A stretch of DNA of 64,000 bases from Catellatospora paridis (GTDB lineage Bacteria; Actinomycetota; Actinomycetes; Mycobacteriales; Micromonosporaceae). Positions 49,768-61,860 of the stretch are shown piece after piece. How positions within the stretch are numbered: the stretch's first letter is position 1; every line of letters starts with the position of its first letter. The stretch lies in contig NZ_ML769312.1 in the NCBI RefSeq assembly GCF_009720365.1, positions 620,001 through 684,000 of the forward strand, read 5' to 3'. The notes below the pieces were generated by a model, which was not told the DNA's origin, did not search any database, and worked only from the letters and a program-made list of their open reading frames with translations. The translations under genes were made by a program, and so were the position numbers.

Positions 49768-51132
49768 TCAGGCCTGGACGGCGAGCTGCTCGTCCATCTG
49801 CTTGCGCCACCACTTCTGGCCGGACTCGGGCAGGGTGTCGATCGGGTCGTAGTACGCGTAGCGCTGGGAGAGCACGTCGACGTTCTGGTCGGCCTCGATG
49901 GAGGTGCGGTAGTTCTTGGTCCAGTACGAGATGCCGTTCTCGCGGTCGTACTCGGTGACCATGTGGACCCAGCGCTTGCCGACGAACGGCACGTCGCAGA
50001 CGATGCGCGGGGTGGCGTAGCCGGGCAGGTAGCCCATGATGTCGTGCTGGAGCTGCTGGGCGGCGCCGACGGAGACGCGCCAGTGCTCGGCGTTGGGGAT
50101 CATGTCGCACATGTAGAAGTAGTACGGCAGGATGTTCGCCTCGCCCTGCAGCGCGAAGCACAGGTCGAGCAGGTCGGGCGAGGTGGCGTTGACGCCGCGC
50201 ATGAGCACGCCCTGGTTGCGTACGTCGCGCACGCCCACTTCGAGGGCCGTCTTCGCGGCACGGGCCACGGTCGGGGTGATCGAGTTGGCGTGGTTGACGT
50301 GCGTGTGGATCGCCAGGTTGACGCCGCGCCGGCGGGCGGTGCGGGCGACCCGCTCCAGCCCCTCGACGACCTCGGGCTGCAGCCAGTGCTGGGGCAGGCC
50401 CATCAGCGCCTTGGTGGCCAGCCGGATGTCGCGGATGGTGTCGATCTCGAGCAGGCGCATCAGATACGACTCGAGGTTCTTCCACGGGACGTTGGCCACG
50501 TCGCCGCCGGAGACGACGACGTCGCGGACGCCCGGGTGGGCCTTGAGGTAGGCGATGTGCGCGTCGTAGCGGTCGACGGGCTTGAGGGTCAGTTTGAGCT
50601 TCTCGACCGCGGGGGTGGAGTTGCCGACCAGGTCCATGCGGGTGCAGTGGCCGCAGTACTGCGGGCAGGTGGACAGCAGCTCGGCGAGCACCTTGGTGGG
50701 GTAGCGGTGGGTGAGGCCCTCGGCGACCCACATGTCGTGCTCGTGGAGGCTGTCGCGGCTGGCGTGCGGGTGGCTGGCCCACTCGGTGAGCCGGTCGGAG
50801 GCGACCGGGATCATGTAGCGGCGCACCGGGTCGGCGTAGAACGCCTCGGTGGTCAGCTCTTCTCGCGCCATCGTGTTGACCATCTGCGGGGGGACCAGCA
50901 TCGACATCGTGGCCAGAGCTTTCTGGTCATCCTCGAGGTCGGCGTAGAAGGCCTCGTCGACGGTGTCGCCGAGCACGGCGCGCAGCTGCTTGATGTTCTT
51001 GATGCAGTTGACGCGCTGCCACTGCGCCGACTCCCACTGCGCAGGGGTGACGTCGCGCCAGCCCGGGAACCGGGTCCAGTCCGGTTCGATCAGCTCTACG
51101 CGGCGGTACTCGTAGGGTTGCCCAGCGTTCAT
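49768..51132 (-). CDS. kamA: Lysine 2,3-aminomutase
   Basis: A 454-aa radical-SAM, PLP-dependent enzyme converting L-lysine to L-beta-lysine. The 4Fe-4S motif is CPQYCGHC (Cys156, Cys160, Cys163), preceded by HRYPTKVLAELLST. DVVVSGGDVANVPWKNLESYLMRLLEID, RLATKALMGLPQHW and NLAIHTHVNHANSITP are typical LAM features. It starts at ATG 51132 with GGAGAGG; the longer frame to 51189 lacks support. It is divergent from kdd, so this locus serves lysine degradation rather than antibiotic beta-lysine supply. Confidence 0.94.
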   Translation of the reverse strand: MNAGQPYEYRRVELIEPDWTRFPGWRDVTPAQWESAQWQRVNCIKNIKQLRAVLGDTVDEAFYADLEDDQKALATMSMLVPPQMVNTMAREELTTEAFYADPVRRYMIPVASDRLTEWASHPHASRDSLHEHDMWVAEGLTHRYPTKVLAELLSTCPQYCGHCTRMDLVGNSTPAVEKLKLTLKPVDRYDAHIAYLKAHPGVRDVVVSGGDVANVPWKNLESYLMRLLEIDTIRDIRLATKALMGLPQHWLQPEVVEGLERVARTARRRGVNLAIHTHVNHANSITPTVARAAKTALEVGVRDVRNQGVLMRGVNATSPDLLDLCFALQGEANILPYYFYMCDMIPNAEHWRVSVGAAQQLQHDIMGYLPGYATPRIVCDVPFVGKRWVHMVTEYDRENGISYWTKNYRTSIEADQNVDVLSQRYAYYDPIDTLPESGQKWWRKQMDEQLAVQA

Positions 51133-51284
51133 CGGTGGCCTCTCCTTTGCGGTCCCGTTGACCATACTGGAAGTTCTTCGGCCTACCAACTAGTCTGCCG
51201 TAGAATTTCCCGCACACATCAAATCTAACCGCAATATTGGTTTTGATCACGCGGTTGCACTTCACTTTTTAGGAGAACCGGACA
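51133..51284. promoter_or_regulatory. Divergent kamA/kdd control region
   Basis: This AT-richer 152-bp region has no gene. It contains a perfect 8-bp palindrome CAATATTG (51232-51239) and a dyad AACCGC (51227-51232) / GCGGTT (51251-51256) separated by 18 bp, a candidate binding site for a regulator of both transcripts. AGGAGAAC serves kdd. Confidence 0.5.
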
Positions 51285-52349
51285 ATGACGTCACCGATCG
51301 GCCTGCACCGGGTCCTGGAACCGAGCGGGGTATTGCCCCAGGCGGCACTTCGCTTGGACATTTCGTCGGAAATCGGGGCAGACGAGGTGCGTATCGCCGT
51401 CGAGCGGCTCAACCTCGACGCGGCGAGCTTCCGGCAGCTGGCCACCAAGCACGCCGGCGACGGCGCGGCGGTCCGCGCCGAGGTCCTGGAGATCATCGGC
51501 GCCCGCGGCAAGATGCAGAACCCGGTCACCGGCTCCGGCGGCATGCTGATCGGCGCCGTCGAGGCCGTCGGCCCGGACTCCCCACTCGGCCTCAAGGCCG
51601 GCGACAAGGTCGCCACCCTGGTCTCCCTCACGCTGACCCCGCTGTCGATCACCGACGGGCTCAAGCGCTGGGACGGCGGCAGCGAGCAGGTCCCCTGCGA
51701 GGGCCACGCGATCCTGTTCGCGCGCTCCATCGCCGCGGTGCTGCCCGCCGACCTGGACCCGGAGCTGGCCCTGGCCGTCATGGACGTGTGCGGCGCACCG
51801 GCGCTGACCGCCCGGGTGGTCGCGAAGTACGACAACCCGACCGTCGCCGTGATCGGCGGCGCGGGCAAGAGCGGCTCGCTGTCCCTGGCCGCGGCAAGGG
51901 CCGCCGGCGCGAGCCGCACCGTCGGGGTCGTCCCCGTCGAGCGCGAGCGCGCGATGCTGGCGGACGCGGGCCTGGCCGACGTGGTCGCGCTGGCTGACGC
52001 CCGCAACCCGGTGGCCCTCGCCGAGGCGGTGGAGGCCGCGCTGGGCGGGCGGGCCGCGGACGTGACCGTGGTCTGTGTCGACGTGCCCGGCTGCGAGCAC
52101 GGGGCGATCCTGTCGACCGCCGACGGCGGCACCGTGATCTTCTTCTCGATGGCGACGAGTTTCGCCGCCGCCGCGCTCGGCGCGGAGGGCCTGGCCGCGG
52201 ACGTGACGATGCTGGTCGGCAACGGTTACGTGCCCGGTCATGCGGCGTACGCGCTGGATCTGCTGCGGCAGGTGCCGGCGGTGCGGGCGATGTTCGAGTC
52301 CCGTCTGCACCACGAGGCCTCGCGGGCCACGTCCGGCACGGCAGACTGA
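51285..52349 (+). CDS. kdd: L-erythro-3,5-diaminohexanoate dehydrogenase
   Basis: A 354-aa protein that oxidises 3,5-diaminohexanoate to 5-amino-3-oxohexanoate with NAD. It begins MTSPIGLHRVLEPSGVLPQAALRLD, the typical Kdd start, with GKMQNPVTGSGGMLIGAVEAVG, SLTLTPLSITDGLKRWDGGSEQVPCEGHAILF, and a Rossmann motif VAVIGGAGKSGSLSLAAARAAGA (residues about 187-210). It is the first gene of the divergent lysine-degradation operon, with AGGAGAAC before ATG 51285. The assignment rests on gene context and these family segments. Confidence 0.88.
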   Translation: MTSPIGLHRVLEPSGVLPQAALRLDISSEIGADEVRIAVERLNLDAASFRQLATKHAGDGAAVRAEVLEIIGARGKMQNPVTGSGGMLIGAVEAVGPDSPLGLKAGDKVATLVSLTLTPLSITDGLKRWDGGSEQVPCEGHAILFARSIAAVLPADLDPELALAVMDVCGAPALTARVVAKYDNPTVAVIGGAGKSGSLSLAAARAAGASRTVGVVPVERERAMLADAGLADVVALADARNPVALAEAVEAALGGRAADVTVVCVDVPGCEHGAILSTADGGTVIFFSMATSFAAAALGAEGLAADVTMLVGNGYVPGHAAYALDLLRQVPAVRAMFESRLHHEASRATSGTAD

Positions 52350-52353
52350 CCTC

Positions 52354-53898
52354 ATGCAGATCTCCGCCTTGCCGGCCGAGCGCACGACGCTCTGGCACAA
52401 CGCCGTTGTCCGCAGCCCCGCTGATCCGGGCGCCACGGCACTGCTCACCCGCGGCCAGCAGCTCGTGTGGCTGGGGCCGCTCGCCGATGCGCCGACCGCC
52501 GACCTGCGGGTCGACCTGGGCGGGGCCCTGGTCACGCCGGCTTTCGTCGACGCGCACGTGCACGCCACCGACACCGGCCTGGCCCTGGCCGGGCTGGACC
52601 TGTCGGCGGTGCGCAGCGCGTCGGAGCTGCTCAAGGCCGTGGCCGAGTTCGCGTCCGGGCTGGGTCCGGAGGCCGTCGTGCTCGGGCACGGGTTCGACGA
52701 GAGCACCTGGGGTGCGGCGCAGACCCCGCCGACCGCGGGCGAGCTGGACCGGGCCGCGGGCGGGCGCAGCGTGTACCTGTCCCAGGCGTCGATCCATTCG
52801 GCGCTGGTCTCCTCGGATCTGCTGGCCCTGGCCGCCGACGCGCCGGGTTTCGACGGCTCGGGTTGGGTGCGCCGCGACGCGCACCACGTGGTGCGGGCGG
52901 CGGCGTTCGGGCAGATCACCATCGTGCAGCGGCGGGATGCGCAGATGCGGATGCTGCGCCATGCGGCGAGCCTGGGCATCGCGGCGGTGCACGAGTGCGG
53001 CGGGCCGGGCACGTCCAGCGAGGACGACTTCACCGAGCTGCTGCGCCTGTCGGGGCAGGGGCTGCCGGAGGTGTACGGGTTCTGGGGCGAGCTGATGGGC
53101 GCGGCCAAGGCCCGGGAGCTGGGTGCGGTCGGCGCGGGCGGGGACCTGTACGCCGACGGGGCGCTGGGTTCGCGGACCGCGCATGTCGGCGAGGACTACC
53201 TGGACGGCGAGCGCGGCTGCGGGCACGGTTACGTGACCGTCGAGCAGGTGCGCGATCACCTGCTGGACTGCCACCGGCACCGGATGCAGGGCGGTTTCCA
53301 CGCGATCGGCGACGCGGCGATCTCGACGGTGGTGGCCGGGTTCGCGGCCGCCGACGAGGTGCTGGGCACCGATGCGCTTCGCGATGCCCGGCACCGGGTG
53401 GAGCACGCCGAGATCATGGACAAGCGGCTGATCGCCGCGTTCGTGGAGTACGGCATCGTCGCGTCGATGCAGCCGGCGTTCGACCGGCTGTGGGGCGGCG
53501 AGCATCAGATGTATGCCCAGCGCCTCGGGGTGGCGCGGAGTCTGGCGTCGAATCCGATGGGGCAGATGCACAACACGGGGGTGGCGCTGGCGTTCGGGTC
53601 GGACAGCCCGGTGACGCCGCTGGACCCGTGGGGCAGTGTCCGGGCGGCGATGCAGCATTTCAACACCCATCAGCGGATGAGCGCGAAGTCGGCGTTCGCG
53701 GCGCACACCCGCGGCGGCTGGCGTGCGGTGCACCAGGATGCCGAGGGCGTGCTGGTGCCGGGCGCTTCGGCGACGTTCGCGGTGTGGCGTGCCCCGGCCG
53801 GGTTGTCCGGCACCCTTCCCAGTCTTGAGCAGCACGATGAGCTGCCGGTCTGTGTCCGTACCGTCCTGCGTGGAGAAACGATCTATGAGCAGCAATAA
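52354..53898 (+). CDS. Amidohydrolase (amidohydrolase_3/YtcJ-like) in the lysine operon
   Basis: A 514-aa metal-dependent hydrolase. The metal-binding motif is VTPAFVDAHVHATDTGLAL (HVH, residues about 64-72), with HEC in IAAVHECGG, a His in GGFHAIGDAAI, RHRVEHAEIM, and the terminal Asp in ALAFGSDSPVTPLDPW. ATG 52354 follows kdd by 4 nt, and its last 14 nt overlap the start of kamD, so it is tightly coupled to the lysine pathway. Known clostridial lysine-fermentation clusters have no amidohydrolase, and the cleavage enzyme Kce is missing here. It may hydrolyse a pathway intermediate or side product, but that is speculation. Confidence 0.82.
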   Translation: MQISALPAERTTLWHNAVVRSPADPGATALLTRGQQLVWLGPLADAPTADLRVDLGGALVTPAFVDAHVHATDTGLALAGLDLSAVRSASELLKAVAEFASGLGPEAVVLGHGFDESTWGAAQTPPTAGELDRAAGGRSVYLSQASIHSALVSSDLLALAADAPGFDGSGWVRRDAHHVVRAAAFGQITIVQRRDAQMRMLRHAASLGIAAVHECGGPGTSSEDDFTELLRLSGQGLPEVYGFWGELMGAAKARELGAVGAGGDLYADGALGSRTAHVGEDYLDGERGCGHGYVTVEQVRDHLLDCHRHRMQGGFHAIGDAAISTVVAGFAAADEVLGTDALRDARHRVEHAEIMDKRLIAAFVEYGIVASMQPAFDRLWGGEHQMYAQRLGVARSLASNPMGQMHNTGVALAFGSDSPVTPLDPWGSVRAAMQHFNTHQRMSAKSAFAAHTRGGWRAVHQDAEGVLVPGASATFAVWRAPAGLSGTLPSLEQHDELPVCVRTVLRGETIYEQQ

Positions 53899-55471
53899 AT
53901 TGGGCCTCGACCCGGCGCTGGTGCACCGGGCGCGGGCGTTGGCGGCGAAGGCCGGGCGGCCTGTGGTGGACATGGCGCGTTCGCATACCACCGTTTCGGT
54001 GGAGCGGGCGGTGCTGCGGCTGTCCGGGGTGACCGGCGCCGACCCCGACGGCATCCCGTGGGTGAACCGTCTCGTGGACGCGGTGCGCAACGACGTCGGT
54101 CTGGGTCACGGTGTGGCGTTGCCGGTGTTCCACGCCCTGGCCGAGCACGGCCTGGAGCCGACGGGGGCGGAGCTGACGCTGCTGGCACAGAAGGCCGCCG
54201 CCGGTTCGGTGCGGTTCGACCTGCCCACCGGCAAGGCCGTCACCGCGGCGAAGAAGGCGTCCCGGCGGCAGGTCGCGGCGGGCATCAAGCTGATCGACCG
54301 CAACCGCGCCGACCGCGACAAGATGATCAAGCGGTATGGCGATCCGAAGCAGCGGCCGTGGATCTACCTGATCGTGGCGACGGGCGACATCTACGAGGAC
54401 ATCCCGCAGGCGCAGGCCGCGGCCCGCGCGGGCGCGGACGTCATCGCGGTGATCCGCTCCACGGGGCAGTCGCTGCTGGACTACGTGCCCGAGGGCGCGA
54501 CCCGGGAGGGTTTCGCGGGCACGTACGCCACGCAGGAGAACTTCCGGCTGATGCGGGCGGCGCTGGACGAGTCCAGCAGGGAGCTGGGCCGCTACGTGCG
54601 GCTGACCAACTACGCCTCCGGCCTGTGCATGCCCGAGATCGCGACCCTGGCCGGGCTGCAGCGGCTGGACATGATGCTCAACGACTCGATGTACGGCATC
54701 CTGTTCCGCGACATCAACCCGATCCGCACGTTCGTGGACCAGCGGTTCTCCCGCCAGATCCACGCCCGCGCCGGGATCATCATCAACACCGGTGAGGACA
54801 ACTACCTCACCACCGCCGACGCGGTCGAGGCCGCGCACACCGTCACCGTGTCGCAGCTGCTCAACGAGTACTTCGCGCACGAGGCGGGGTTGGCGGACTG
54901 GCAGCTCGGGCTCGGGCACGCGTTCGAGATCAACCCGGAGCTGCCGGAGTCGTTCCGCCTCGAACTGGCGCACGCGCTGCTGGCGCGGGAGCTGTTCCCG
55001 GACGCGCCGCTGAAGTGGATGCCGCCGACCAAGCACATGACCGGCGACGTGTTCCGGGGCAACCTGCTCGACGGGTTCTTCAACCTGGTCGGGGCGCTGA
55101 CCGGGCAGGGCATCCTGCTCGTCGGCATGATGACCGAGGCCGTCGTCACGCCGTGGCTGTCGGATCGCGACATCGCGCTGCAGAACGTGCGGTACGTGCT
55201 CGGCGCGGCCGGCAACCTGCACGAGGACTTCGTGCCCGCCCCCGACGGGTTCATCCAGCGCCGCGCCCACCAGGTCCTCGACGAGGCCATCGACCTGCTC
55301 GAGAAGATCGAGGACGACACGCTGCTCAACGCGATCGCCGACGGCACGTTCGGGATCATGAAGCGGCCCGCGCACCGTGGCAAGGGCCTGGACGGCGTCG
55401 CCAAGCACGACGACGGCTACTACAACCCGGCCACCGAGATCCTGGAGACCCCCGGCAAGGAGCAGCAGTGA
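53885..55471 (+). CDS. kamD: Lysine 5,6-aminomutase, alpha subunit
   Basis: A 528-aa large subunit of the B12/PLP-dependent lysine 5,6-aminomutase, which moves the terminal amino group of beta-lysine to C5, giving 3,5-diaminohexanoate. Characteristic segments are LGLDPALVHRARALAAKAG, MARSHTTVSVERAVLRLSGV, PWIYLIVATGDIYEDIPQAQ, GAGADVIAVIRSTGQSLLDYVPEGAT in its local form, and RAGIIINTGEDNYLTTADAVEAAHTV. ATG 53885 lies inside the last codons of the amidohydrolase; GTGA overlaps kamE downstream. It works as an alpha2-beta2 complex with KamE. Confidence 0.94.
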   Translation: MSSNKLGLDPALVHRARALAAKAGRPVVDMARSHTTVSVERAVLRLSGVTGADPDGIPWVNRLVDAVRNDVGLGHGVALPVFHALAEHGLEPTGAELTLLAQKAAAGSVRFDLPTGKAVTAAKKASRRQVAAGIKLIDRNRADRDKMIKRYGDPKQRPWIYLIVATGDIYEDIPQAQAAARAGADVIAVIRSTGQSLLDYVPEGATREGFAGTYATQENFRLMRAALDESSRELGRYVRLTNYASGLCMPEIATLAGLQRLDMMLNDSMYGILFRDINPIRTFVDQRFSRQIHARAGIIINTGEDNYLTTADAVEAAHTVTVSQLLNEYFAHEAGLADWQLGLGHAFEINPELPESFRLELAHALLARELFPDAPLKWMPPTKHMTGDVFRGNLLDGFFNLVGALTGQGILLVGMMTEAVVTPWLSDRDIALQNVRYVLGAAGNLHEDFVPAPDGFIQRRAHQVLDEAIDLLEKIEDDTLLNAIADGTFGIMKRPAHRGKGLDGVAKHDDGYYNPATEILETPGKEQQ

Positions 55472-56229
55472 AGACGGTCATCCGCCCGTACGGCGACACC
55501 ACCGGCGACGGCATGACCCAGGTCAGCTTCACCCTGCCGCTGCCGCACGACAAGAAGGCCGAAGGCGCGGCGCTGCAGCTCGCGGCGAAGATGGGCCTGG
55601 AACCGGCGATGCTCGTGCACGCCAAGCAGATGGGCGACGGCTTCACCTTCTTCGTGATCTACGGCAGCGTCCGGCACCTGGTCGAACTCGACAAGGTCGT
55701 GGTCGTCGAGCGCGACTTCCCGCTGCTGACCGCGAAAGAGGTCAACACGGTCGTCAAGCAGAAGCTGCGCCGCAAGCTGTCGGTGGTCGGGGCGTGCATC
55801 GGCACCGACGCGCACACCGTCGGCATCGACGCGATCCTGAACCTCAAGGGCATCGCCGGCGAGAAGGGCCTGGAGTACTACCGCGAGCTGAAGGTCGTCA
55901 ACCTGGGCGCGCAGATCACCGTGCCCGAGCTGGTCGCCGCCGCGAAGGCGGAGAAGGCCGACGCGGTCCTCGTGTCGCAGGTCGTCACGCAGCGCGATGC
56001 GCACCTGCACAACACCCGCGAGATGTCGGCGGCGTTCCGGGAGGCCCTGCCGGCCGACAAGCGGCCGCTGCTGATCGTCGGCGGGCCGCGGTTCGACGAG
56101 CTGATGACCGACGAACTGGGCGTGGACCGGATCTTCGGCCGCGGCACGACCCCGCGCGAGGTCGCCAGCTACCTGGTCCACGCGCTGATCACCAACAAGG
56201 CCGAACGGAAGAAGGCAGTCGCAGCATGA
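55468..56229 (+). CDS. kamE: Lysine 5,6-aminomutase, beta subunit
   Basis: A 253-aa adenosylcobalamin-binding subunit. It has the base-off B12 motif DxHxxG in CIGTDAHTVGIDAIL (Asp114, His116, Gly119) inside a Rossmann-like domain, with the glycine-rich VGGPRFDELMTDELGVDRIFGRGTTP at the end. The PLP-binding lysine of this subunit is expected at Lys144 (YRELKVVNLG), the numbering known for the Clostridium sticklandii enzyme. GTG 55468 overlaps kamD, and the stop overlaps kal by 4 nt. Confidence 0.94.
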   Translation: MKTVIRPYGDTTGDGMTQVSFTLPLPHDKKAEGAALQLAAKMGLEPAMLVHAKQMGDGFTFFVIYGSVRHLVELDKVVVVERDFPLLTAKEVNTVVKQKLRRKLSVVGACIGTDAHTVGIDAILNLKGIAGEKGLEYYRELKVVNLGAQITVPELVAAAKAEKADAVLVSQVVTQRDAHLHNTREMSAAFREALPADKRPLLIVGGPRFDELMTDELGVDRIFGRGTTPREVASYLVHALITNKAERKKAVAA

Positions 56230-56606
56230 GCGTCGGTTTCACCGTCACGCACCGCAAGTATGTGCCGTACAGCCACGCGCACTACGCGGGCAACCTCGTC
56301 GACGGCGCGTACGCCCTGGCCGCGTTCGGCGACGTCGCGACCGAGGTGTGCATCCAGCTCGACGGCGACGAGGGCCTGTTCGCGTCGTACTCCGACGTGC
56401 AGTTCAAGGCCCCGATGCGGGCCGGGGACGTGCTGGAGATCGTCGCGACGGTGGCCCGGATGGGCACCCGCAGCCGCACCATCGACTTCGAGGCCCGGGT
56501 CGTGTGCCGGGGCCGGCCCGACCGGTCGGAGTCGGCCGCCGAGGTCCTCGACCCGCCGGTCACCGCGGTCACCGCGACCGGCACCGTGGTGGTCCCGCCC
56601 AAGTGA
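56226..56606 (+). CDS. kal: 3-aminobutyryl-CoA ammonia-lyase
   Basis: A 126-aa hotdog-fold protein: MSVGFTVTHRKYVPYSHAHYAGNLVDGAYALAAFGDVATE, then the hot-dog helix and strands with MRAGDVLEIVATVARMGTRSRTIDFEARVV. In lysine fermentation Kal removes ammonia from 3-aminobutyryl-CoA to give crotonyl-CoA. Its position directly after kamDE supports this assignment over a generic thioesterase. ATG 56226 overlaps the kamE stop (ATGA), and the kal stop overlaps the next gene by GTGA. Confidence 0.88.
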   Translation: MSVGFTVTHRKYVPYSHAHYAGNLVDGAYALAAFGDVATEVCIQLDGDEGLFASYSDVQFKAPMRAGDVLEIVATVARMGTRSRTIDFEARVVCRGRPDRSESAAEVLDPPVTAVTATGTVVVPPK

Positions 56607-57937
56607 GCCTGCTGTGCTGTGTCGACGTCGGGTCGACGTTCACCAAGGCGGCCCTGGTCGACACCGGCAGCGGTGAACTCGTCGCGACCGGTTCGCACCG
56701 CACCACCGTCGGCACCGACGTCCTGCACGGCCTCGACGCGGCCGTCGCGGCGACCGGCCGGAACCCGGACGGGCTGCTGGTGTGCTCGTCGGCCGGCGGC
56801 GGGCTGCGGCTGGCCGTCGTCGGCTACGAGCGCCTGGTGACGGCGCAGGCCGGGCACCGCGTCGGCCTGTCGGCCGGGTCGCGGGTCGTGCACGTCGCCG
56901 CGGGACGCCTCGACCGGGCCGGGCTCGCCGGGCTGCGCGCCGCCCGCCCCGACGTGGTGCTGCTGGTCGGCGGCACCGACGGCGGCGACACCGAGACCAT
57001 CACCCACAACGCGACCCGGCTGGCCAACGCGCGATGGCGGGTGCCGACGGTGCTGGCGGGCAACGCCGACTGCCGCGAGCAGCTCGCCGCGCTGCTGGCG
57101 GACGCGGGGGTGCCGGTCGTCGCGGTCGGCAACGTGCTGCCCGCCATCGGCGTGCTCGACCCCGGCCCGGCGCGGGCCGCGATCCGGCAGGTGTTCCTGC
57201 AGCACGTCATCGGCGGCAAGAAGCTGTCCCGGGGGCCGCGGTTCGCGTCGCTGGTACGGGCGGCGACACCGGACGCGGTGCTGTCCGGCGTCGAGCTGCT
57301 GGCCGCCCGCGCGGGGGAGGACCTGCTGGTCGTCGACGTCGGCGGGGCCACCACCGACGTGTACTCGGTGCTCACGCCCGACGCCGAGCAGCTGGCCGGG
57401 GTGCGTGACGAGGTCGCCGGGGTGATGTGGGCGGCCCGCACCGTCGAGGGCGACCTCGGCATGCGCTGGTCCGCGCCCGGTGTGGTGGCCGCCGCCGCGC
57501 TGGAGAAGATCATCGGGCCGGATGAGGCGCAGGTTCTGGAACTCGCCGCGGCGGCGCGCGCCGAGCATCCCGGATACGTCGCCGACGACGGCGTCGAACG
57601 GGCCGTCGACCAGCGGTTGGCCGAGTTGGCCGTCACGGTCGCGTTGCGCCGCCACGCCCGCGGCGAGGCCGTCGTCGCCGGGGGTCCCCGGCGCGGCGGG
57701 CGTGACCTGCGTGCGGTGCGGACCGCGATCGGGTCCGGCGGCGTGCTGCGGCACAGCCCGCCGCAGGTCGCCCAGGCCGTGCTCGGCGCGGGACTGGGTG
57801 ACACCGCCGGCGGCTGGGCGCTGCCGCGGGCCGCCCGCACGGTCGTCGACGTGTCCTACATTCTGGCCGCGGCAGGACTTCTCTCGGTGGAACATCCCGA
57901 CGCCGCGGCCGCGCTGCTCGCCGCTGAACTGGGCTGA
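56603..57937 (+). CDS. MutL/GlmL-type aminomutase-reactivating ATPase
   Basis: A 444-aa ASKHA-fold protein starting VSLLCCVDVGSTFTKAALVDTG (phosphate 1 loop), with a second DVGG motif in DLLVVDVGGATTDVYSVLTPD and TDGGDTETITHNA. This is the MutL/GlmL family, named after glutamate mutase and unrelated to DNA mismatch-repair MutL. In lysine 5,6-aminomutase operons it is the ATP-dependent reactivase that exchanges damaged cobalamin. GTG 56603 overlaps kal, so the five plus-strand genes after kdd are coupled. It closes the operon. Confidence 0.88.
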   Translation: MSLLCCVDVGSTFTKAALVDTGSGELVATGSHRTTVGTDVLHGLDAAVAATGRNPDGLLVCSSAGGGLRLAVVGYERLVTAQAGHRVGLSAGSRVVHVAAGRLDRAGLAGLRAARPDVVLLVGGTDGGDTETITHNATRLANARWRVPTVLAGNADCREQLAALLADAGVPVVAVGNVLPAIGVLDPGPARAAIRQVFLQHVIGGKKLSRGPRFASLVRAATPDAVLSGVELLAARAGEDLLVVDVGGATTDVYSVLTPDAEQLAGVRDEVAGVMWAARTVEGDLGMRWSAPGVVAAAALEKIIGPDEAQVLELAAAARAEHPGYVADDGVERAVDQRLAELAVTVALRRHARGEAVVAGGPRRGGRDLRAVRTAIGSGGVLRHSPPQVAQAVLGAGLGDTAGGWALPRAARTVVDVSYILAAAGLLSVEHPDAAAALLAAELG

Positions 57938-58464: not shown

Positions 58465-60120
58465 GTGGTGACTGTGCAGACCCTCGCTCCGGCGAACGGC
58501 GAAACCGGGCCGGACGGCGTGCCCAGCGGCATGACCGCCGGCGGACCCGCGCCGCTGCGGCTGCCCGTGGCGCTGGCCCTGTCGGTCGCCGCCGGGCTGG
58601 CGCTGCTGGTCGCGTTCCCGCTGTACGGCCTGTGGTGGACCGCGCCGATCGGCGTGGCGCTGCTGGCCCTGGCGGTGCGCGGGCGCAGGCTGCGGGCCGG
58701 GTTCGGGCTGGGCTTGATCACCGGGGCGGTGTTCTTCGGGCCGCTGCTGGCCTGGACCAACCTGCACGTCGGCTACGCCCCGTGGATCCTGCTCACCCTG
58801 TTCCAGGCCACCTACCTGGGGCTGCTGGGCATGGCGCTGGCCTGGATCAGCCCGCTCGCGCGGCGCAGGCCGTGGCTGTGGCCGGCCGGGATCGCGCTGC
58901 TGTGGGTCGCCCAGGAGGCGCTGCGCGACCGGGCCCCGTTCGGCGGGTTCCCGTGGGGGCGGCTAGCGTTCAGCCAGGCCGACGCCCCGACCCTGGCCCT
59001 GGCCGGATACGGCGGCGCGCCGCTGGTCACGTTCGCCGTCGCGGCGGCCGGCGGGCTGCTCGCGTACGCCCTCGGGCAGGTCGGCGCACGGGCCTGGACC
59101 CGTGCCGCCGCCGCGACCGCCGGAGGCCTCGCGGTCATGCTGCTCGGCCTGGTCCTGCCCGCCACCACCCCGGACGGCCCCGCCGTCACCGTGGCCGTGG
59201 TGCAGGGCAACGTGCCGCGGCTGGGCCTGGACTTCAACGCCCAGCGCCAGGCCGTGCTCAACAACCACGTCGCCGCCACCATGGTGCTGGCCGAACGGGT
59301 CCGCGCCGGGCAGGCCAAGCAGCCCGACCTGGTCGTGTGGCCGGAGAACGCCTCCGACATAGACCCCCTGCGCAACCCGAGCGCCGCCGACGCGATCAAC
59401 ACCGCCGCCCGGGCGATCAACGCCCCGATCCTGGTCGGCGCGGTGCTGTCCGGCCCGGAGCAGGGCCAGTCCCGCAACGCCGGCCTGGTCTGGCCCGCCG
59501 ACCTCGCGCCCGGCGCGCAGCCCGAGCAGATGTACCTCAAGCAGCACCCGGTGCCGTTCGCCGAGTACCTGCCGCTGCGCCCGATCGTCGAACCGATCGC
59601 GCAGGCCGTCACGAACCAGGCCAAGCTGCTGCGCACCGACTTCGTCGCGGGCACCGCCCCCGGCGTGCTCACCCTCGGCCCGGCGAAGGTCGGCGACGTG
59701 ATCTGCTTCGAGGTCGCCTACGACGACGTGGTACGCGACACCGTGCTGGCCGGCGCGCAGCTGCTCGCGGTGCAGACCAACAACGCGACCTTCGACGAGT
59801 CCGAGGCGATGCAGCAGATGGCGATGGTGCGGCTGCGGGCCGTCGAACACGGCCGGGACAGCCTCATGGCCTCAACTGTCGGTGTGTCCGGATTTGTAAC
59901 TGCCGACGGAAATGTGCATGATGCATCTGGTTTCAACACCGATGCGGTACTGGTGCGCGACCTGCACCTCGGCTCCGGCACCACGCCGGCGACGAACGTG
60001 GGGCCGTGGCCGGAGTACCTGCTGACGCTCGCGGCGCTCGCGCTGCTGATCGCGGCGGGCGTGGCGCGCAGGCGTCGCCCCGCGCCGGTGGAGGACACTG
60101 GACAGGCAGTATCGGCATAA
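58465..60120 (+). CDS. lnt: Apolipoprotein N-acyltransferase
   Basis: A 551-aa membrane enzyme that adds the third acyl chain to lipoproteins. About seven N-terminal helices are followed by a nitrilase-fold domain (about 240-510) with the catalytic triad: Glu294 in VVWPENASDID, Lys359 in MYLKQHPVPFAEYLP, and Cys414 in DVICFEVAYDD (equivalent to E. coli Glu267, Lys335, Cys387). A final helix near the C terminus completes it. In mycobacteria Lnt is fused to Ppm1; here the two are separate but adjacent, 14 nt apart. The GTG start (58465, or 58468) follows an AAGATT hexamer. The window's lipoproteins would be substrates. Confidence 0.93.
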   Translation: MVTVQTLAPANGETGPDGVPSGMTAGGPAPLRLPVALALSVAAGLALLVAFPLYGLWWTAPIGVALLALAVRGRRLRAGFGLGLITGAVFFGPLLAWTNLHVGYAPWILLTLFQATYLGLLGMALAWISPLARRRPWLWPAGIALLWVAQEALRDRAPFGGFPWGRLAFSQADAPTLALAGYGGAPLVTFAVAAAGGLLAYALGQVGARAWTRAAAATAGGLAVMLLGLVLPATTPDGPAVTVAVVQGNVPRLGLDFNAQRQAVLNNHVAATMVLAERVRAGQAKQPDLVVWPENASDIDPLRNPSAADAINTAARAINAPILVGAVLSGPEQGQSRNAGLVWPADLAPGAQPEQMYLKQHPVPFAEYLPLRPIVEPIAQAVTNQAKLLRTDFVAGTAPGVLTLGPAKVGDVICFEVAYDDVVRDTVLAGAQLLAVQTNNATFDESEAMQQMAMVRLRAVEHGRDSLMASTVGVSGFVTADGNVHDASGFNTDAVLVRDLHLGSGTTPATNVGPWPEYLLTLAALALLIAAGVARRRRPAPVEDTGQAVSA

Positions 60121-60134
60121 ACGTGGAGGTCCCG

Positions 60135-60920
60135 GTGAACGGCAACGAGGCGGAGATCGGGTATCCCGGCGTAGGCCGGGTGCTGGTGATCATTCCGACG
60201 TACAACGAGTCGGAGAACGTCCGGTTGATCGTCCCCCGGGTGCGCCGGGCCACGCCCGAGGTCGACATCCTGATCGCCGACGACAACAGCCCCGACGGCA
60301 CCGGGGCGATCGCCGACGAGATGGCCGCCGCCGACGACCACGTCAAGGTGCTGCACCGGCCCGGCAAGCAGGGCCTGGGCGCGGCGTACATCGCCGGCTT
60401 CGACTGGGCCCACGAGCACGGCTACGACGCCGTCGTCGAGATGGACGCCGACGGCTCGCACGCCCCGGAGGAGCTGCCGCGGCTGCTCGACGCGCTGCGC
60501 GGCGCCGACGCGGTCATCGGCTCCCGCTGGGTGCGCGGCGGCAAGGTGATCAACTGGCCGGTGCGCAGGCTCATCCTGTCGCGCGGCGCGAACCTCTACA
60601 CCCGCGTGGTGATGGGCATGGGCGTCAAGGACGCCACCGGCGGCTACCGCGCCTACCGGCTGCCCGTCCTTCGCAAGATCGACGTGGAGACGGTGACCTC
60701 GCGCGGCTACAGCTTCCAGGTCGAGCTGACCTACCGCACCCACCGGCACGGCTTCCGCATCGCGGAGGTGCCGATCACGTTCGCCGAGCGCGAGCACGGC
60801 GTGTCCAAGATGAGCGGCTCCATCATCAAGGAGGCGCTGTGGAAGGTCACGGTGTGGGGTGCGCAGTCCCGCCGCGAGTCGGTGCGGCGTATGTTCAAGC
60901 CGAGTGACCGCTGGCCGTGA
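60135..60920 (+). CDS. ppm1: Polyprenol monophosphomannose synthase
   Basis: A 261-aa GT2 glycosyltransferase that moves mannose from GDP-mannose to polyprenyl phosphate on the cytoplasmic face of the membrane, feeding glycolipid and glycoprotein mannosylation. LVIIPTYNESENVRLIVPRV starts the GT-A fold, DILIADDNSPDGTGAIADEMA and VEMDADGSHAPEELPRLL (DXD-type metal site) follow, then GSRWVRGGKVINWP and RIAEVPITFAEREHGVSKMSG. There is no transmembrane region, as in DPM1. I chose GTG 60135 behind GGAGG (5 nt); GTG 60123 is possible. It matches the Ppm1 catalytic domain of M. tuberculosis. Confidence 0.92.
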   Translation: MNGNEAEIGYPGVGRVLVIIPTYNESENVRLIVPRVRRATPEVDILIADDNSPDGTGAIADEMAAADDHVKVLHRPGKQGLGAAYIAGFDWAHEHGYDAVVEMDADGSHAPEELPRLLDALRGADAVIGSRWVRGGKVINWPVRRLILSRGANLYTRVVMGMGVKDATGGYRAYRLPVLRKIDVETVTSRGYSFQVELTYRTHRHGFRIAEVPITFAEREHGVSKMSGSIIKEALWKVTVWGAQSRRESVRRMFKPSDRWP

Positions 60921-60954
60921 TCCCGTGCCGGCCCGACCGGCTGGAGGTGACCGG

Positions 60955-61470
60955 ATGCGCAGACTGCGGTGGGTGCCGCTGGCCGTGCTGCTGCTGGGCG
61001 CGGTGGAGTTCGCCGTCTTCTGGGGCGTCAGCCGCCTGATCGGCATCGGCGCGACGCTGCTGCTGGCGATCGGCCTGATGCTGCTCGGCGCGTTCCTGCT
61101 GCGCAAGGAGGGGCTGTCGGCCTGGCGGCGGCTGCGTGAGGCGCGGCTTTCCGGGCAGACCCGCGGCGATCAAGCCGTCGACGGCGTGGTCGGCCTGATC
61201 GCGGCCCTGCTGCTGATCATCCCAGGGCTGCTGACCGCGGCCGTCGGGCTGCTGCTGCTGATCCCGCCGGTGCGCCGGCTGGCCCGCGGGCGGGTGCGCG
61301 CCGCGACCGAGAAGCGCATCCCGGCGTCGGCCGCCAACAGCGTGTTCGGGCCGAGGAAGGTCCGGGTCAGCACCCCGCACGACCCGCACCACCAACCCCA
61401 CCCGCCACAGCCGCCCGCCGCGGGCCGCCCCGGGCCGTCCGAGGTCATCGAGGGCGAGATCGTCGACTGA
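60955..61470 (+). CDS. fxsA: FxsA family membrane protein
   Basis: A 171-aa protein: MRRLRWVPLAVLLLGAVEFAVFWGVSRLIGIGATLLLAIGLMLLGAFLLRKEGLSAWRRLREAR (two helices), then DGVVGLIAALLLIIPGLLTAAVGLLLLIPPVRRLARGRV (two more helices) and a His/Pro-rich cytoplasmic tail. This is the FxsA (suppressor of F exclusion of phage T7) family; a cytoplasmic-membrane protein of unclear cellular role. ATG 60955 has CTGGAGGTGA upstream. It follows ppm1 by 34 nt and ends before a strong hairpin, so lnt, ppm1 and fxsA probably form one operon. Confidence 0.9.
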   Translation: MRRLRWVPLAVLLLGAVEFAVFWGVSRLIGIGATLLLAIGLMLLGAFLLRKEGLSAWRRLREARLSGQTRGDQAVDGVVGLIAALLLIIPGLLTAAVGLLLLIPPVRRLARGRVRAATEKRIPASAANSVFGPRKVRVSTPHDPHHQPHPPQPPAAGRPGPSEVIEGEIVD

Positions 61471-61521: not shown

Positions 61522-61860
61522 TCAGCGGCCGCGTCTGGTGCGCACGTCGGCCAGGCGCTCGTTGAGGATCTCGTCGAGCTCGGTCATCGACCGGCGTTCC
61601 AGCAGCATGTCCCAGTGCGTACGCGGAGGCTTGACCTTCTTCTGCTCCGGCTCGGTGCCGTCGACCAGGCGTGCCACGCTCCCGTCGAACTTGCATTCCC
61701 AGGTCGCGGGCACTTCGGCCTCGACCGCGAACGGCACCTCGAAGCGGTGGCCCTGGGCGCACAGGAACTCGCGCATCTGACGCGGCGCGAGTTCGGTGTT
61801 GCGCTCGGACTCGTAGCTGACGGCCCCCAGGCGGCTTCCCCGCAACATCCGATCGCCCAT
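61522..61860 (-). CDS. rbpA: RNA polymerase-binding protein RbpA
   Basis: A 112-aa protein, the usual RbpA length, specific to actinobacteria. It stabilises the open complex and binds the sigma factor and the non-template strand. MGDRMLRGSRLGAVSYESERN, EFLCAQGHRFEVPFAVEAEVPATWECKFDGS (core domain with zinc-like Cys pair), and the C-terminal sigma-interaction helix PRTHWDMLLERRSMTELDEILNERLADVRTRRG are all present. ATG 61860 has GAGGAG upstream. An exact SigR-type promoter (GGAAT-N18-GTT) lies 38-63 nt upstream, matching its known induction by thiol/oxidative stress in Streptomyces. Confidence 0.96.
   Translation of the reverse strand: MGDRMLRGSRLGAVSYESERNTELAPRQMREFLCAQGHRFEVPFAVEAEVPATWECKFDGSVARLVDGTEPEQKKVKPPRTHWDMLLERRSMTELDEILNERLADVRTRRGR

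Follow-up and report, generated by a model that had tools for sequence, protein, structure and literature searches.

A Kam-Type Lysine Degradation Operon in Catellatospora paridis With a Putative kce Gene in Trans and a Nested Amidohydrolase of Probably Different Function

A stretch of 64,000 nucleotides from the genome of the actinomycete Catellatospora paridis (Micromonosporaceae), referred to here as the window, carries at positions 51285 to 57937 a kam operon for lysine degradation, and a gene for an amidohydrolase is nested in it, since kdd lies on one side of that gene and kamD, kamE, kal and a mutL/glmL-family gene lie on the other. The original prediction made from this sequence recognized genes for KamA, Kdd, KamDE, Kal and MutL/GlmL, all of which were recovered by open reading frame (ORF) and profile searches, with kamA just outside this range and divergent from kdd. 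It also stated correctly that genes for the 3-keto-5-aminohexanoate cleavage enzyme (Kce) and for a CoA-transferase are absent from the operon, and it proposed that Kce lies elsewhere or that these actinomycetes close the pathway differently, with the amidohydrolase doing a job in the pathway. The gene content very probably represents the known Kam-Kdd-Kce-Kal route with kce encoded in trans, and the amidohydrolase would be a nested resident of a neighboring gene island and not a pathway enzyme. Of the two options, the first is thus favored by a gene on another contig and by its co-occurrence with kamD, and the second may survive in a single late step. On the evidence of gene content, the puzzle appears mostly resolved.

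A Probable Cleavage Enzyme Gene on Another Contig

The 9-Mb host genome has a single gene of the BKACE/DUF849 family, G000:C23:24827-25660(-), which is located on another contig than the kam operon. Its product (C23 BKACE) is 65-75% identical to the kam-linked BKACEs of 17 genomes of the family and shares 73% (L086) and 65% (L078) identity with two Kce proteins encoded next to kamA, in an alignment from which the out-of-frame row L076 was excluded. When compared with the solved Kce structure 2y7d, all checked active-site residues are retained apart from one threonine replaced by serine, the positions having been counted by hand. In the 2y7d numbering, the retained residues are the two metal-binding histidines, Glu14, Ser82, Glu143, Arg226, Glu230 and Asp231, and the substitution is Thr106 to Ser.

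The distribution of this gene among genomes closely follows that of kamD. In a survey of 150 genomes of the family, in which a Kce ortholog was defined by at least 65% identity, kamD was found in 141 genomes and a Kce ortholog in 143, the latter being present in 141/141 kamD-bearing genomes vs. 2/9 kamD-lacking ones, both of which (G002 and G113) are fragmented assemblies. The seven genomes with neither gene are G030, G033, G059, G063, G093, G105 and G121, G059 being only 82% and G063 only 77% complete. The two genes lie within about 4 kb of each other in 17 of the 141 kamD-bearing genomes, all from genera g12, g14 and g15. A survey of 296 genomes of the class, with orthology set at 60% identity or more and up to eight Kce candidates scored per genome, gave kamD in 64 genomes, the kam gene set recurring in 25 family groups, and a Kce ortholog in 61 of these 64 vs. 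2 of the 232 genomes without kamD (Fisher p 6e-57, a kind of value that overstates significance because genomes share ancestry). The kamD-bearing genomes lacking an ortholog are G172 and G298, both incomplete, and G408; those with an ortholog and no kamD are G218 and G391, a 54% match in G437 not being counted. The presence in trans of a putative enzyme for the Kce step can be regarded as largely settled, and with a Kce ortholog at a distant site in the genome, no new enzyme is required for the family to complete the pathway.

The unlinked kce has a recurrent neighbor of its own. An Asparaginase_II gene (PF06089) follows it at 19 of the 21 loci of this kind examined (L042-L064, inspected with 1.5-kb flanks, minus L045, which is not an ortholog, and L044, which is kam-linked), and the pair was noted at G000:C23, at L002:8847-10660 and among L042-L064.

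The Nested Amidohydrolase and Its Probable Genomic Island

The amidohydrolase gene (52354..53898, +, with an ATG start at 52354) stands between kdd (51285..52349, +) and kamD (53885..55471, +) and overlaps the latter by 14 nt, exactly as the original prediction described. Synteny was compared by tblastn on the fetched flanks of 80 kam loci, 40 from the family and 40 from the class. The order KamA|Kdd-amidohydrolase-KamD-KamE-Kal is shared by 36 of the 40 family loci, so that the arrangement is not due to chance, and the amidohydrolase also lies between kdd and kamD in 18 of the 40 class loci; a 19th class locus (L117) carries it upstream of kamD but has no match to kdd, and L146 ends with its contig. 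The suggestion that this position reflects a job in the pathway is not supported. A Kce ortholog lies on another contig, and many kam loci lack the amidohydrolase, a combination that by the original prediction's own criterion would make the coupling incidental: 19 of the 40 class loci have no nested copy and stem from genomes that contain a Kce ortholog but give no amidohydrolase match at E ≤ 1e-60. The gene was detected in 146 of the 150 family genomes (E ≤ 1e-40), and in the class in 34/64 genomes with kamD vs. 110/232 without (E ≤ 1e-60; p 0.48); judged by these homology searches, its presence is independent of kamD.

The constant neighbors of the amidohydrolase are instead homologs of Lnt, Ppm1, FxsA and RbpA, and the protein is most likely the upstream member of this actinomycete island, with a predicted role outside lysine breakdown. 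An island gene lies within the fetched flank of 33 of the 36 family loci with a nested copy. In the genera that have kce attached to the kam operon, the amidohydrolase is found elsewhere, directly upstream of Lnt-Ppm1-(FxsA)-RbpA, at all 12 loci fetched from the 17 genomes concerned. Among 20 class loci without nearby kam genes (19 from genomes lacking kamD, plus G408), Lnt, Ppm1 or RbpA follows the amidohydrolase in 18, an island gene appearing only after 3.3 kb in L176 and not at all in L175, with L183 ending with its contig. The best 80 named loci of at least 461 amidohydrolase relatives, whose free copies come mostly from Streptomyces and Kitasatospora, comprise 26 with kamD nearby and 54 without; island genes are present in 54/54 of the latter, and the five loci of this set that lack island genes are all kamD loci. 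A confinement of the amidohydrolase to kam operons is ruled out by such island loci without kam genes. The gene even persists in four genomes of the family, G093, G105, G121 and G030, that lack kamD and Kce genome-wide, where the order is KamA<- ->amidohydrolase->Lnt->Ppm1 and no remnant of kdd, kamD, kamE, kal, mutL or kce was detected at E < 1 within the loci themselves (L147-L150). We infer that kam genes were lost from these genomes, not later gained. The amidohydrolases of G093, G105 and G121 share 80% identity with the copy nested in the operon of G034, a member of their genus (g34), and that of G030 shares 63%.

Several observations weigh against placing the amidohydrolase in the island alone. 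In the class survey, up to five candidates were scored per genome, which limits the recorded absences, and two diverged nested copies, in G230 (L120, 36%) and G420 (L138, 30%), escaped the E ≤ 1e-60 threshold. Three of the 36 family loci with a nested copy show no island gene in the fetched flank, namely L097, L098 and L082, the last cut short by its contig end. None of the four fetched family loci with a kce-linked kam operon has a nested amidohydrolase, a pattern that would also fit a replacement of Kce. Nested copies sit tightly on kamD, with an overlap in 22 of 55 cases and a gap above 100 nt in 8 of 55 (starts estimated), and such packing suggests that the amidohydrolase is probably co-transcribed with kamD. 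Finally, homologs of Lnt, Ppm1 or RbpA flank the kam operon in 38 of the 40 class loci, whether or not the amidohydrolase is there; since the operon adjoins the island in both situations, operon, amidohydrolase and island appear to be long-standing neighbors, and the adjacency of operon and island in the class loci is old.

The close spacing to kamD, often with an overlap, together with the metal-dependent amidohydrolase fold predicted by the structural model, would also suit an accessory enzyme recruited to the pathway wherever it is nested, which might, for example, reopen a delta-lactam formed from 5-amino-3-oxohexanoate or 3,5-diaminohexanoate, a chemistry that is itself conjectural. We consider such recruitment very unlikely. 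The active-site residues are conserved in 89-91 of 93 rows of nested and free copies pooled (see below), and a tree of the amidohydrolase (92 rows, built by a quick method), which mostly mirrors taxonomy, implies 11 changes between the nested and free states by parsimony, at least seven of them on starred branches. Moreover, the protein is kept in the g34 genomes without kamD and Kce, in a form close to the nested G034 copy, and 30 of the 64 kamD-bearing class genomes show no match to it, or at most 28 when the two diverged copies are counted. There is a similarly slim chance that the amidohydrolase of Micromonosporaceae, packed against kamD, acquired an additional pathway function, for instance the reopening of a lactam side product of 5-amino-3-oxohexanoate, and kept its ancestral one in the island; if so, the class-wide adjacency of kam operon and island would be functional and not merely inherited.

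The protein itself belongs to the Amidohydro_3 family, scoring 237 bits on PF07969 against a gathering threshold of 29.7, and is of the 'YtcJ-like' type. It is 96% identical to its homolog in Catellatospora methionotrophica. The AlphaFold2 model is confident (mean pLDDT 93.6) and adopts a metal-dependent amidohydrolase fold, whose nearest solved relatives by Foldseek are the uncharacterized 3icj (24% identical) and 3igh (21% identical); neither fold nor sequence comparison returned a characterized close relative. The likeness to these two structures consists of the fold and a pattern of HxH, His, His and Asp, which is conserved in 89-91 of 93 rows. The window protein differs from 3icj in having Asp 264, present in 90/93 rows, at the position of a lysine.

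One further copy, at G091:C1:2702369-2703813, gave a match broken into two parts, with a TGA inside one of them, and may be a pseudogene or an assembly error.

Alternative Assignments of the Cleavage Step

The identification of C23 BKACE as Kce has points against it as well. The Kce model (NF052387) is its best match in NCBIfam, with a score of 276 bits that falls below the cut-off of 382, and three Kce proteins encoded next to kamA in relatives, at 255-293 bits, fall below it likewise. Because these operon-linked orthologs score alike, the low score is a trait of the clade. C23 BKACE shares with the Kce group of the family (2y7d; groups as given in PMC4922564) its family membership, the metal-binding HxH and the catalytic residues, and differs in its score and in adjoining an Asparaginase_II gene rather than kam genes. 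BKACE enzymes are also described there as promiscuous. It is conceivable, on the basis of the low score and of a PcaF-related thiolase 2.6 kb away (itself below the cut-off of that model), that C23 BKACE is another beta-keto acid cleavage enzyme, acting for instance on 3-oxoadipate, and that a different protein performs the Kce step. This is highly improbable: Kce is the best model and operon-linked orthologs have similar scores, the co-occurrence with kamD is very strong, BKACE is missing from 7/9 kamD-lacking family genomes (two of them incomplete), and the thiolase is not seen in the vicinity of Kce at L163 and L165, two further long loci that were inspected.

Carbon-carbon hydrolases such as LigY belong to the amidohydrolase superfamily. 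That the nested amidohydrolase replaces Kce by hydrolyzing 5-amino-3-oxohexanoate to acetate and 3-aminobutyrate, with a CoA ligase then feeding Kal, would agree with its presence in the operon at 36/40 family loci and its absence from the four kce-linked ones, but is extremely improbable, since all 141 kamD-bearing family genomes also carry a Kce ortholog, the amidohydrolase persists where kamD and Kce are both missing and is common without kamD in the class, and 19/40 class kam loci dispense with it in genomes that have Kce, and a role as Kce substitute was rejected on these co-occurrence data.

Proposed Route and Comparison With Lysine Fermentation

In the route proposed here, all enzyme activities and the flux are predicted. 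KamA would convert lysine to beta-lysine, and KamDE, with the MutL/GlmL protein as its probable reactivase, would convert beta-lysine to 3,5-diaminohexanoate, which Kdd would oxidize to 5-amino-3-oxohexanoate. The trans-encoded Kce is expected to act on this product together with acetyl-CoA, yielding 3-aminobutyryl-CoA and acetoacetate, as described for Kce in PMC3149608. Since Kce makes 3-aminobutyryl-CoA directly, Kal would be supplied without a CoA-transferase and would form crotonyl-CoA, which may then enter beta-oxidation. The acetoacetate left over needs a different assignment. No protein of the butyrate-acetoacetate CoA-transferase type (PF01144, AtoAD) was found in the whole genome, where AtoA/AtoD-like subunits had been thought worth looking for, and PF01144 is present in 65 of 80 surveyed genomes, which makes the gap a local feature. 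The genome was searched for two activators of acetoacetate, and acetoacetyl-CoA synthetase, encoded by one gene, is the only one detected (775 bits vs. a cut-off of 521; 904 bits on PRK03584). Because no CoA-transferase was found, this enzyme is the candidate for the activation of acetoacetate, and one late step may run differently from the known pathway. The synthetase scores above the cut-off in 171/296 class genomes and is not specific to the pathway.

The lysine fermentation of Fusobacterium, Clostridium sticklandii and Cloacamonas, as set out in PMC3149608, involves kamA, kamDE, kdd, kce, kal or kat, and atoAD. Homologs of KamA, KamDE, Kdd, Kce and Kal are common to this route and to the window host. 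Unlike in the fermentation route, kce is unlinked in the window host, the amidohydrolase is nested in the operon and a MutL/GlmL-type protein is encoded in it, no AtoAD-type protein was found in the genome and acetoacetyl-CoA synthetase is present, and the host, an actinomycete, is presumed to be aerobic.

Organization of the Locus and Related Loci

The assignments of the remaining kam proteins vary in strength. Kdd, KamD, KamE and Kal all exceed the equivalog cut-offs of their NCBIfam models (NF052381, 261 bits vs. 200; NF052384, 699 vs. 600; NF052385, 347 vs. 280; NF052388, 190 vs. 160), and Kdd, the 3,5-diaminohexanoate dehydrogenase, also matches the solved Kdd 7dl3 (E 6.9e-70). The genes kamE (~55468..56229, +), kal for 3-aminobutyryl-CoA ammonia-lyase (~56226..56606, +) and mutL/glmL (~56603..57937, +) have starts read by eye. 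The reactivase-like product of the last passes PF13941 (445 bits) and TIGR01319 (243 bits vs. 204) and stays below the equivalog model NF040745 (329 bits vs. 475). The kamA gene (49768..51189, -) encodes a radical SAM enzyme similar to lysine 2,3-aminomutase, whose matches to TIGR00238 and TIGR03820 are below cut-off (for TIGR03820, 162 bits vs. 525), and which is related to the solved lysine 2,3-aminomutase 2a5h (E 1.7e-41), the CxxxCxxC motif and the two aspartates of that structure being matched in the alignment. These residues and the lysine right after the second aspartate are conserved in 78-79 of 79 KamA rows; they correspond to the iron-sulfur motif, the pair of substrate aspartates and the lysine that binds pyridoxal phosphate.

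The island begins with an lnt-like gene for an apolipoprotein N-acyltransferase (58465..60120, +; PF20154 LNT_N, PF00795), followed by a ppm1-like glycosyltransferase 2 gene (60006..60920, +; PF00535, its true start lying within the ORF), by fxsA (60955..61470, +; PF04186, 92 bits, start picked within the ORF 60859-61470) and by rbpA on the opposite strand (61522..61860, -; PF13397, 148 bits).

A MutL/GlmL-like match was recorded in 38/40 fetched family kam loci vs. 0/40 class-level loci outside the family. In three genomes without kamD and Kce, namely G093, G105 and G121 (L147:8195-9586, L148 and L149), a KamA with intact catalytic residues adjoins the amidohydrolase, and no kdd, kamE, kal or mutL was found in the searched loci; the retention of KamA suggests another use of beta-lysine there. 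At L150 of G030 the contig ends within KamA, so that just its beginning is visible. Locus L125 of G408 contains kamA, kamE and a single reading frame of 930 aa that comprises kdd and kamD, in the neighborhood of an AMP-binding enzyme, a thioesterase, a luciferase-like monooxygenase and a LuxR-type regulator; no kal was found in this locus and no Kce ortholog match genome-wide, and it is possibly a natural-product cluster drawing on an intermediate of the lysine pathway.

Conclusion

Among the papers listed by literature searches, none dealt with an actinomycete kam operon or with the amidohydrolase island, which is weak evidence of absence, as the sources covered leave out most subscription papers. 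Gene content, linkage and co-occurrence, as observed in the genomes, remove an apparent missing step of the lysine pathway by way of an unlinked kce. They also illustrate that a gene nested in an operon and overlapping its neighbor may nonetheless be part of another module, and tie a widespread amidohydrolase, by its genomic context, to lipoprotein and glycolipid genes and to rbpA instead. Judged by the distribution of kamD (141/150 genomes), the gene set of a Kam route regarded as 'fermentative' would be nearly universal in this family of actinomycetes.

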